Part shown: positions 43,395 through 49,988 of the stretch, piece by piece | Layout: each line of letters starts with the position of its first letter | Position numbering within the stretch: the stretch's first letter is position 1 | Source: an uncultured Actinomycetes bacterium | Lineage (GTDB): Bacteria > Actinomycetota > Actinomycetes > Nanopelagicales > Nanopelagicaceae | DNA: 49,988 nucleotides | Direction of reading: 5' to 3' | NCBI GenBank assembly: GCA_937888825.1 | Contig: CALBFE010000019.1 | Coordinates: 1-49,988, forward strand | The notes under the pieces: generated by a model | Seen by the model: only the letters and a program-made list of their open reading frames with translations | Told to the model about the DNA's origin: nothing | Database searches by the model: none | Position numbers and translations under genes: made by a program

Positions 43395-46488
<3,094 letters not shown>

Positions 46489-46492
<4 letters not shown>

Positions 46493-47634
46493 GAAAGATT
46501 TGCCGCCCTTCCACGGGTAATTACATCAGGCATTACTGACACCGCGAAATCAACGTCGGCATTTGTGCTTGTGGCACCGAAAGAAAAGCGCAGAGAAGAC
46601 TGAGCACTTACTTCACTGTGTCCCATGGCAAGTAGAACGTGGCTGGCTTCATGCACACCAGCGCTGCAGGCTGATCCTGTTGAACAGGAGATGTTTTGTG
46701 CATCCATGAGCAATAGCAAAGTGTCACTTTGTGTTCCAGGAAAGGTGACATTGACGATTCCAGGCAAGCGATCTGATTTCACACCATTAATAATCACTTC
46801 AGGCAGTGCAGAAGTAATACCTGCAATAAAGGAGTCACGCAGTGCGCTTACGTTCTCTACATCGTAATACTTGCTCTTAGCTGCTGCAGCAAAAGCAACA
46901 ATTGCCGGTGCATTTAAAGTTCCACTTCTAATCTCACGCTCTTGTCCCCCACCATGGAGCAATGCTGGGATTTCAACTGCTCTGCGCAAAATAAGTGCGC
47001 CAATTCCTAGAGGTCCTCCAACTTTATGGGCACTCAATGACATTGCATAAACGCCAAGATCTGCAAATGAAAGCGGAACCTTTTTAAAGCTCTGCGCGGC
47101 ATCGGTGTGAACTGGAATTTCTCCAGCAATTTCAACAACCTTTGCAATCGGTTGAATAACTCCAGTTTCATTATTTGCGTGCATCACGCTAATTACTGCA
47201 ATCTCATTGCCTCTGGCAGTAACAAGTTGAGCAAGAAATTCAATGTCTATTACGCCATTAGCGTTAACCGGGATTTGAATAATTTCAGCGGCCTCATGTA
47301 CTTCAAGCCAATGTGCAGGATCAAGAATTGCATGGTGCTCGATAGCACTGATAACCACAACGTGCTTTCCCTTATCGCGTCCTTGCCAATACAAACCTTT
47401 GAGCGCAGTGTTATTTGCTTCTGTACCTGATGCGGTGAAAATAACTTCACTCGGCAAGCAACCAACTTCTTTTGCAATAACTTCTCTGGCATCTTCTAAA
47501 GTTTTTCGTGTTGCACGTCCATGTGTATGCAAACTTGAAGGATTACCTAAGCGTGCTAACTGGGCAGTCATGGCAATTAACGCTTCTTCAACCATGGGCG
47601 TTGTGGCCGCATGGTCTAGGTAGATAGAGGACAT
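46489..47634 (-). CDS. iscS: Cysteine desulfurase (IscS/NifS family)
   Basis: PLP enzyme mobilising sulfur from cysteine. From the ATG at 47634 it begins [14 protein letters not shown], and PLP binds K204 in [10 protein letters not shown]. The catalytic cysteine is C323 in [12 protein letters not shown]. Length 381 fits. A longer in-frame start (47715) would add 27 residues unlike the family and overlap etfA, so it is rejected. No good Shine-Dalgarno; a TAAGAT box lies 7 bases upstream. Pairing with mnmA indicates tRNA thiolation as one role, and Fe-S assembly may be another. Confidence 0.94.
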
Positions 47635-47641
47635 GGGTCCA

Positions 47642-47647
47642 ATCTTA
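47642..47647 (-). promoter_or_regulatory. Candidate -10 box (TAAGAT) for leaderless iscS mRNA
   Basis: TAAGAT, which includes the etfA TAA stop, ends 7 bases before the iscS ATG. The -35 region lies inside etfA and is not convincing. Confidence 0.38.
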
Positions 47648-48598
47648 GGCTTTGAGGGCTTTAACGCCTTCAGTGGCAGGAGGCAGCACGGCAAAGAGAT
47701 CGCCCACAACACCAAAATCAGCTAATTCAAAAAGTGGAGCTTCTGGATCTTTATTAACCACCACGATGTTCTTGCTTGTTTGCATACCTGCGCGGTGCTG
47801 AATTGCCCCTGAGATTCCGCATGCAACATAGAGCTGTGGGCTCACAGTTTTTCCGGTCTGACCAACTTGGTGAGAATGTGGATACCAACCAGCATCAGTT
47901 GCTGCGCGTGATGCGCCAACTGCTGCGCCTAATGAATCTGCAAATGCTTCCACCGATGCAAAATCTCCGTTAGTTCCACGGCCACCTGAGACAACAATGT
48001 TGGCTTCAGTTAACTCAGGTCGACCACCCTTAACTGGAGGTTGCGAGGAAGTAATTGTTGCTTTCTTAGACGAATCAGAGATTGGCGCAGTTATGTTTTC
48101 AATTAAAGGCGTAGCCGCGGCAAAGTTTGCAGTGATGGTGTTTGGGCGCACAGTAATAATCCCAGTTCCTTCGGCAACCTTTGAGTGCACAGTTGTGGAT
48201 CCACCAAAAACTAATTGAGTCGCTGTGCAATCTGACGCAATATCTACAGCATCAGTAATAATGCCAATCTTTAGCTTCATTGCCACACGTCCAGCAACTT
48301 CTTTGCCAAATGCGTTTGAAACAACTAGAACTGCCGATGGCGTGGTTTGCCCGATGACATGTGCGAGCGCATCTGCGCATGCTGCAACGCCATGCTTTGT
48401 AAAATCATCTGATTCAATCACTAATACTTTTGTGACAGGTCCCTGAGTAATGGAGGCTGCATACGCTGCGCCTTTTCCAACAGGTGCTAAAACAAGAGCG
48501 GTTACTTCACCAATAACTGCGCCAGCAGTTGCTATTTCAACCGTTGCTTTGGTGGCCTTTTCGCCGGCAAAATCAGCGAGAATTAACACAGTGCTCAT
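47645..48598 (-). CDS. etfA: Electron transfer flavoprotein alpha subunit
   Basis: FAD-carrying subunit that passes electrons from acyl-CoA and related dehydrogenases to the quinone pool through ETF dehydrogenase. The C-terminal FAD-binding domain is clear, with VSGGRGTNGDF, GASRAATDAGW, QVGQTGKTVSPQLYVACGISGAIQH and INVVNKDP-like VVVNKDPEAPLFELADFGVVGDL. Length 317 matches the family. Its ATG overlaps the etfB stop by four bases. Confidence 0.95.
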   Translation of the reverse strand: MSTVLILADFAGEKATKATVEIATAGAVIGEVTALVLAPVGKGAAYAASITQGPVTKVLVIESDDFTKHGVAACADALAHVIGQTTPSAVLVVSNAFGKEVAGRVAMKLKIGIITDAVDIASDCTATQLVFGGSTTVHSKVAEGTGIITVRPNTITANFAAATPLIENITAPISDSSKKATITSSQPPVKGGRPELTEANIVVSGGRGTNGDFASVEAFADSLGAAVGASRAATDAGWYPHSHQVGQTGKTVSPQLYVACGISGAIQHRAGMQTSKNIVVVNKDPEAPLFELADFGVVGDLFAVLPPATEGVKALKA

Positions 48599-49380
48599 AT
48601 CAACTTCTTCTCACTCAAGAAATCAACAAGTTTTTGACCAGCTGAGCCATCATCTGTAACAACAACACCTGTGGCACGGGGTGGACGAGGAGCTGCATCA
48701 ATTACTGCAGACCATGACTTTGTGAATTCAGCACCCGTGCTAGCAAAGTCACGAATATCAATTGTTTTTTTCTTCGCGGCCATAATGCCCTTAAAGGATG
48801 GGTAGCGAGGTTCATTAATCTTTTCAACAACGCTAATTACGCAAGGAAATTCTCCATGGACTTCATCAACGCCAGCTTCAGTAACTCGTGTAATCGAGAC
48901 CTTCTTGGCACCTGGATCTACTGTGACTTTGGAGGCAAAAGTTAATTGAGCACATCCCAGCTTCTCACTCATCATCGCTGGCACAACGCTCATACGAGCA
49001 TCCGTTGACTCAGTTCCGCAGATAACAAGGTCATACTCACCTTTAGAGATGACATTGGCTAAAACTTCAGCGGTAACAACAGCATCTGCTCCAACTAGAA
49101 CAGCATCACTAATCAAAATCGCATCATTTGCACCCATCGATAGGGCCTTTCGCACAGCTTCAGTTGCACGCTCTGGTCCCATTGAAATAACTGTGACTGT
49201 GTTAGCGCCACCTTCTTCATTGCCGCCATGTGCTTCTGCAATTCGAAGTGCTTCTTCAACAGCATATTCATCTAAGTCATTGAGAACTGCATCGACGTTG
49301 GCGCGATCGAGTAATCCACCAACCATCTTCTTCTCAGCCCATGAATCTGGGACCTGTTTGATGCAGACTGCGATCTTCAT
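48595..49380 (-). CDS. etfB: Electron transfer flavoprotein beta subunit
   Basis: AMP-binding partner of EtfA. From the ATG at 49380 it begins MKIAVCIKQVPDSWAEKK and is 261 aa, the usual size. The ETF-beta signature region is VVEKINEPRYPSFKGIMAAKKK. An upstream in-frame ATG (49440) would run across the promoter palindrome and is rejected. No Shine-Dalgarno is seen; the -10 box ends 7 bases before the ATG. It is divergent from glgX and heads the long minus-strand run. Confidence 0.95.
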   Translation of the reverse strand: MKIAVCIKQVPDSWAEKKMVGGLLDRANVDAVLNDLDEYAVEEALRIAEAHGGNEEGGANTVTVISMGPERATEAVRKALSMGANDAILISDAVLVGADAVVTAEVLANVISKGEYDLVICGTESTDARMSVVPAMMSEKLGCAQLTFASKVTVDPGAKKVSITRVTEAGVDEVHGEFPCVISVVEKINEPRYPSFKGIMAAKKKTIDIRDFASTGAEFTKSWSAVIDAAPRPPRATGVVVTDDGSAGQKLVDFLSEKKLI

Positions 49381-49387
49381 GTGGCCA

Positions 49388-49417
49388 AGGTTACTGGCCA
49401 GTAACCCGAAAGGCCAA
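49388..49417 (-). promoter_or_regulatory. etfB promoter, leaderless
   Basis: TTGGCC (49417-49412), an 18-base spacer and TAACCT (49393-49388) form a fair -35/-10 pair on the minus strand. The -10 ends 7 bases before the etfB ATG, so transcription should begin at the start codon. Confidence 0.6.
49389..49406. promoter_or_regulatory. Perfect 18-bp palindrome in the etfB promoter (candidate operator)
   Basis: GGTTACTGGCCAGTAACC is identical on both strands. It covers most of the -10 box and the adjacent spacer, a position where a bound dimer would block RNA polymerase. The TTACT...AGTAA shape resembles sites of TetR-type regulators. The regulator is not in this window. Confidence 0.65.
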
Positions 49418-49462
49418 TTAAATGTGCGGGTAAATACCATCTATTAAGGGCAGTATTGCGCC

Positions 49463-49988
49463 GTGCTTGCAGCTGATCCCCGAACCCTTGGTGCCACCGT
49501 CACTGAAGGCGGAACAAACTTTGCCATCTGGTCCAATGCCGCCGATGCAGTGGAGCTGTGCCTTTTTAATGAGGTCAATGGCAAGTTAGTAGAAACCCGC
49601 TTTGCAATGTCACATCGCAACGGACCAATCTGGCACGGCTATCTAGCAGGCGTGCGCCCAGGTCAGCGCTATGGCTACCGCGTCTATGGACCATGGCAAC
49701 CAGAACACGGCGTGCGCTTCAACGCTTCTAAACTTTTGATTGATCCTTATACGCACTCACTTGATGGGCAACTTCATTACGTCCCTGAAATCTATGGCCA
49801 TGTTGCAACCGATGGTGTGGGAACTGGTGATCTAACTATTCGCGATGATCGCGATAGTGCGGGAAAGCTTCCTTACAGCGTTGTTACTGATCACCGCGCT
49901 CGCGAGATCAATCGCCCACTAGTGCCATGGGCTAAGACAATAATTTATGAAGCACACGTACAAGGCTTAACTGCAAAGAATTTAGATA
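49463..49988 (+). CDS. glgX: Glycogen debranching enzyme GlgX, 3' end cut by window edge
   Basis: Isoamylase-type debranching enzyme removing branches from glycogen limit dextrins. The visible 175 residues begin MLAADPRTLGATVTEGGTNF (GTG start) and form the CBM48-type N-terminal domain, with FAIWSNAADAVELCLF and HGYLAGVRPGQRYGYRVYGPW. The catalytic barrel begins at IIYEAHVQGLT as the window ends. AAGGG lies 12 bases before the GTG, a little far. A TACCAT (49435-49440) is a weak -10 candidate. The only plus-strand gene in the window; glycogen use is inferred from the family. Confidence 0.92.
   Translation, partial: MLAADPRTLGATVTEGGTNFAIWSNAADAVELCLFNEVNGKLVETRFAMSHRNGPIWHGYLAGVRPGQRYGYRVYGPWQPEHGVRFNASKLLIDPYTHSLDGQLHYVPEIYGHVATDGVGTGDLTIRDDRDSAGKLPYSVVTDHRAREINRPLVPWAKTIIYEAHVQGLTAKNLD

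Follow-up and report, generated by a model that had tools for sequence, protein, structure and literature searches.

Genes and features of the etfB locus

The window, i.e. the whole stretch of 49,988 nt that was analysed, belongs to genome G000 (1.37 Mb, 108 contigs) and carries the genes of the electron transfer flavoprotein (ETF), with a perfect reverse palindrome of 18 bp lying 5' of etfB. The features of the locus are as follows.

43395..47634, minus strand: tightly packed open reading frames, named earlier as iscS, mnmA and ligA; the ATG of iscS is taken as 47634
47645..48598, minus strand: etfA (alpha subunit), overlapping the etfB stop; a transcript common with etfB is presumed
48595..49380, minus strand: etfB (electron transfer flavoprotein beta subunit), the predicted regulated gene; ATG at 49380
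49388..49393, minus strand: -10 hexamer TAACCT, comprising the right half-site and one further base; separated from the ATG by 7 nt
49389..49406: perfect palindrome GGTTACTGGCCAGTAACC
49392..49403, no strand: operator core TACTGGCCAGTA, inside the palindrome; family consensus YTACY-N4-RGTAAC[AC]T
49412..49417, minus strand: possible -35 hexamer TTGGCC, weak (4/6) and assigned by eye; spacing to the -10, 18 bp
49463..49988, plus strand: divergent gene, read as glgX; its association with the site is not conserved

The hexamer TAACCT, ending 7 nt before the ATG, is consistent with a leaderless etfB promoter, and both coordinates and sequence confirmed the palindrome over the -10 box and spacer of this promoter, as the preliminary description had placed it. 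A sigma-70 consensus scan of positions 49300-49520 listed no promoter, including no -35 at 49412..49417. A longer etfB reading frame with its start at 49440 was rejected, and the starts of the relatives match the ATG at 49380. Control of iscS, mnmA and ligA by the site would depend on their co-transcription with etfBA, which is possible.

GGTTACTGGCCAGTAACC is the sole perfect palindrome of at least 18 bp within the window. In copies of the window generated with a first-order Markov model, such palindromes numbered 0.16 on average, with one or more in 15 of 100 copies, so the perfection is only weakly unusual; perfect palindromy alone is weak evidence for function, and the proof lies in conservation. 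Among the aligned sites of the relatives the palindrome's outer GG and CC were not kept, and the perfect 18-mer is therefore an extended form of an operator of 12-14 bp. It is, as looked for in a TetR-type operator, a short perfect or near-perfect palindrome over promoter elements.

Conservation and promoter register

In 28 etfB loci of the same genus the TACYNNNNRGTAAC core was located 22 or 23 bases before the ATG, and the conservation in sister genomes that had been called for was found, with a perfect 10/10 core in 26 of the 28 loci, one at 9/10 and one at 8/10. The set was extended to 52 non-redundant loci of the family (same-genus and more distant members, duplicates removed), of which 42 scored 10/10, seven 9/10 and two 8/10; the single locus without the site (L089) reached at best 6/10 in the 60 bases searched. 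Upstream of the thiolase gene fadA, 29 loci showed the core at 10/10 and one at 9/10, these being the best-scoring 30, with a fadA match in 54 of 60 genomes searched; a stricter pass located 26 of these 30 genes and found the core in 25. At class level, cores of at least 9/10 were present in 11 of 21 etfB upstream regions (0.22 expected) and in 11 of 13 fadA upstream regions (0.07 expected). These comparisons support the palindrome as a real, conserved operator, predicted from sequence, before fatty-acid oxidation genes.

The 79 aligned sites scoring at least 9/10 read YTACY-N4-RGTAAC[AC]T. In the right half the first T and the A were kept in 79 of 79 sites, and the next A, the C and the final T in 78 each. 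Conservation extends past the symmetric core on the right side alone, as AC[AC]T, giving TAAC[AC]T, which is a -10 box of the TANNNT type oriented toward the downstream gene. In the etfB loci of the family about 7 nt lie between the end of this half and the ATG. Other families have a leader of up to about 200 bases, with a GGAGG-like element, between the site and etfB, and the TAACA half of the site is retained despite this long leader. The operator thus travels together with the promoter, an arrangement that suggests repression through occlusion of the -10 box.

Targets of the predicted operator

A pattern search with up to three mismatches gave matches in 30 of 61 genomes of the genus, located at etfB, at fadA and once at an enoyl-CoA hydratase gene (L024), while the remaining matches whose loci were inspected were mostly intragenic. 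In genome G000 the strict pattern was found at etfB, at fadA and at one fabG-like gene (C82:5018). These three distinct sites are not commoner than the control matches (3+3), and the case therefore rests on conservation. A wide regulon in this genome was rejected, the relaxed pattern TACNNNNNNGTAACM giving 5+4 matches against 14+7 for the control; the extra matches inspected were mostly within genes. A search of the genome for further copies had been suggested: the core does recur at fadA, but no second copy of GGTTACTGGCCAGTAACC was found at two or fewer mismatches, the single match with three mismatches being at G000:C31:15625. Copies at acyl-CoA dehydrogenase genes, on which that search was to focus, were found in other actinomycete families but not in this genome, in which the two genes checked had no site (best 8/10).

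The TACCTAGCGGTAACC site is situated at G000:C82:5018-5032 (L155) and at G015:C1:737535 (L156), just 5' of a fabG-like gene with an enoyl-reductase-like gene after it. G015 is the only one of the four complete relatives examined to have the site, G014, G040 and G051 being without it. If real, this site would couple fatty-acid synthesis to the same switch. In G014 another site (L146:1501-1518) lies between a divergent long-chain acyl-CoA ligase-like gene and a polyketide-cyclase/SRPBCC gene; the latter looks leaderless.

Among 246 genomes of the class with a completeness of at least 95%, TACYNNNNRGTARCAT was present in 200, with 615 matches against 36 for the reversed pattern. Thirty class loci were studied, one per genome and taken in listing order, not at random. 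In 22 of them the site precedes an acyl-CoA dehydrogenase, etfB, fadA or DUF4442 gene, and in two of these 22 it is also 5' of fasR. Several gene queries were taken from the loci themselves (L273, L275, L277 and L281) or from L262, and the gene names are based on a Pfam scan of ten proteins, nine of which adjoin a site. The other eight loci were L269, L272, L278, L290, L291, L292, L294 and L296; the neighbour at L290 was, by eye, a mutase-like protein. Loci L291, L292, L294 and L296, from four genomes of one family, share at position 1501 an identical TACCGACCGGTAGCAT with conserved flanks, and no recognisable gene was found directly downstream of it. Genome G093 had an unusually high number of motif matches (15), including two pairs 57 bases apart (C35 and C47).

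FasR orthologue as candidate regulator

The search for a tetR-type gene, also suggested in the preliminary description, yielded two TetR_N genes in G000, one of them an orthologue of FasR. This orthologue (L157, G000:C106:18984-19592) adjoins a moeZ-like gene. Its closest solved structures, aligned at residues 10-201, over its length, were 6o6p (E 4.3e-56) and 6o6n (E 1.6e-55), which carry only the label of TetR family regulators and which we take to be entries of Mycobacterium tuberculosis FasR, in agreement with the match to the FasR model. The score against the NCBIfam FasR model was 236.5 bits, below the equivalog cut-off of 330, and the model name suggests that this cut-off was set for mycobacteria. 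In the DNA-recognition region 36 of the first 50 aligned residues are identical to those of M. tuberculosis FasR, and the segment VSKPVLYQHF is identical. The acyl-CoA tunnel residues L98, L106, F123, V163 and L185 correspond to L, I, Y, A and M in L157, one being kept and the changed ones being mostly hydrophobic or aromatic. L157 was matched at E ≤ 1e-30 in 35 of 37 genomes of the genus; the exceptions were G018 (74% complete), with no FasR, and G008 (41% complete), with a weak match.

The 25-mer co-crystallized with FasR (DNA from PMC7382501) consists of two abutting 12-bp cores, each matching TACYNNNNRGTA at 7 of 8 positions, and the fraction of random 25-mers with two such matches was 0.00013. 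Its complementary strand begins with TACTGGCGAGT, a sequence to which the fadA site is identical in 6 of the 17 relatives compared. In the crystal study, adjacent dimers are described as lying next to each other on one DNA fragment (PMC7382501).

At L277:1501-1520 (G106) and L279:1501-1520 (G070) the site lies between divergent fasR and acyl-CoA dehydrogenase genes and can be read in either direction as a -10 box. The promoter between a TetR gene and its divergent target is the usual place for TetR autoregulation. The FasR proteins of G106 and G070 have 51% and 50% identity, respectively, to that of G000. In the closest genus no evident site was seen upstream of fasR in the part of 30 loci that was read, the best being at most 9/10 at one locus (L166).

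Almost every genome of the class has FasR, which is present in 222 of the 246 genomes as scored among the best ~12 candidates per genome. The motif was found in 197 of the 222 FasR-positive genomes (610 matches; 32 for the reversed pattern), leaving 25 that are FasR-positive yet motif-free, and in 3 of the 24 FasR-negative ones (5 matches; control, 4), namely G092 (three sites), G107 and G260. The association is confounded by kinship, as 12 of the 24 FasR-negative genomes belong to one family; leaving this family out, the motif is present in 3 of 12. The presence of etfB and fadA in FasR-negative genomes was looked up in G066, where both genes are present and FasR orthologue and site are absent, and in the incomplete G074 (72%), which has no orthologue-level FasR match, yet a perfect fadA site. 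The sites without detected FasR in G092, G107, G260 and G074 could reflect assembly gaps, the limit on candidate number or another binder.

From these data we infer that the FasR orthologue is the best candidate binder. The suggestion that a dimeric repressor, perhaps of the TetR family, controls ETF gains support from the conserved operator, the sites at oxidation genes and the FasR candidate, as far as sequences can tell.

Alternative explanations

The same operator might be bound by another protein, either the second TetR regulator (L158, G000:C95) or a non-TetR one, with FasR merely co-occurring. The binding of FasR to the site is a prediction, the motif is kept in three FasR-negative genomes, and a mycobacterial TetR repressor of fatty-acid catabolism, FdmR, has been reported. 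On the other hand, L158 has no good match to a fatty-acid regulator (best PDB E value 1.8e-6, over the HTH part), FasR is found almost throughout the class, in two genomes the site lies in the promoter of the fasR gene, and the published FasR DNA fits the motif. We consider another binder unlikely.

Control of the divergent glgX by the same site, which would tie fatty-acid oxidation to glycogen use, had also been proposed, and the start codons of glgX and etfB are indeed only 82 bp apart in the window. The divergent gene varies, however, across the 52 non-redundant family loci, being glgX in 11, a GT4-type glycosyltransferase gene in 21, fabD in 6 and, in 14, another gene or none, so that in 41 loci the neighbour is not identified as glgX while the site stays with etfB in nearly all of them; moreover, its -10 half faces etfB. 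This coupling is very improbable, and the claim was not upheld. In G008 (L034 and L004) the divergent neighbours of etfB are a fabD-like and a fabH-like gene, not glgX, and the etfB site is thus placed between oxidation and synthesis genes.

It is also highly improbable that no regulator is involved and that the symmetry is a by-product of a mirror-image divergent promoter with two opposed -10 boxes. Although nearly all sites have a -10 box as their right half and the mirror half of the fasR/fadE sites can also be read as one, the A that would complete a left-hand TANNNT is present in only 9 of the 79 aligned sites, whereas the left half itself is kept (T in 74, A in 79, C in 78 and Y in 79). 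The mirror hexamer of the window is TAACCC, and a promoter rule would not single out etfB, fadA and fadE. A functionless chance palindrome, expected as a perfect 18-mer in about 15 of 100 such windows, was rejected and is practically excluded by the in-register conservation of at least 9/10 in 49 of the 52 family etfB loci and also at fadA.

Proposed mechanism and biological meaning

The palindrome probably serves as operator for a regulon of fatty-acid oxidation, with the FasR orthologue binding to it as a dimer. The mechanism proposed here starts from the site, its conservation, its -10 register, its targets and its co-occurrence with FasR, as read from the sequences, and takes FasR as the putative binder, repression as the presumed effect and acyl-CoA as the presumed signal. 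The ligand-free FasR dimer would sit on TACY-N4-RGTA, covering the -10 box and blocking RNA polymerase, and etfBA and fadA-fadB (G000:C2) would be kept off. Long-chain acyl-CoA would enter FasR and release it from DNA, so that the thiolase/hydratase set and its electron acceptor, ETF, would be switched on together. Release of M. tuberculosis FasR from DNA by long-chain acyl-CoA in vitro has been reported (PMC7382501). Published M. tuberculosis FasR is an activator (PMC7382501), which counts against the proposal; with a single site that covers the -10 box at oxidation genes, repression would be expected here. A role of FasR in oxidation is accordingly a prediction from sequence.

M. tuberculosis FasR (Rv3208) is described as activating the fatty-acid synthase genes, fas-acpS, from three inverted repeats (PMC7382501, PMC7652896). 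It resembles the system described here in being an orthologous TetR protein with the identical VSKPVLYQHF and in its co-crystal DNA of two near-cores, and differs in activation and in its three repeats, compared with one site over the -10 of oxidation genes. Corynebacterium glutamicum FasR, reported to be a TetR-type repressor acting via fasO, is similar in both respects, being a TetR-type FasR and a repressor, but its reported targets, accBC, accD1, fasIA and fasIB, are those of synthesis (PMC6460773). At fatty-acid synthesis genes, the published location of FasR action, the site was found here at the fabG-like gene of G000 and G015 and not in G014, G040 or G051.

Mycobacterial FdmR is similar in being, as reported, a TetR-family repressor of fatty-acid catabolism. 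FdmR senses acyl-CoA. The TetR protein FadR of Bacillus is likewise an acyl-CoA-sensing protein at fatty-acid genes, but a different one, the FadR model giving 45.6 bits on L157 against 236.5 for the FasR model. Sulfolobus FadR is a different protein too, and the operators of Bacillus and Sulfolobus FadR differ from this site. FadR of Sulfolobus acidocaldarius is reported as an acyl-CoA-sensing TetR protein at fatty-acid genes (PMC6449355).

In the open-licence literature searched, a weak basis for a negative result, neither a report connecting FasR with etfB or beta-oxidation genes nor the motif as text was found. The target set comprising etfB, fadA and acyl-CoA dehydrogenase genes appears not to have been described for FasR in that literature.

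The chances are about even that FasR is, class-wide, primarily an acyl-CoA-responsive repressor of beta-oxidation and ETF genes, that its part in synthesis, as published for mycobacteria and corynebacteria, arose when protein and operator were later re-used, and that in the streamlined freshwater lineage only two operons of the regulon, etfBA and fadAB, are left. FasR has been reported as required for the virulence of M. tuberculosis (PMC7652896). A widespread operator and target set are here proposed for this regulator, known in M. tuberculosis for the control of synthesis, and a common freshwater lineage with very few regulators gains a concrete candidate for a fatty-acid switch.
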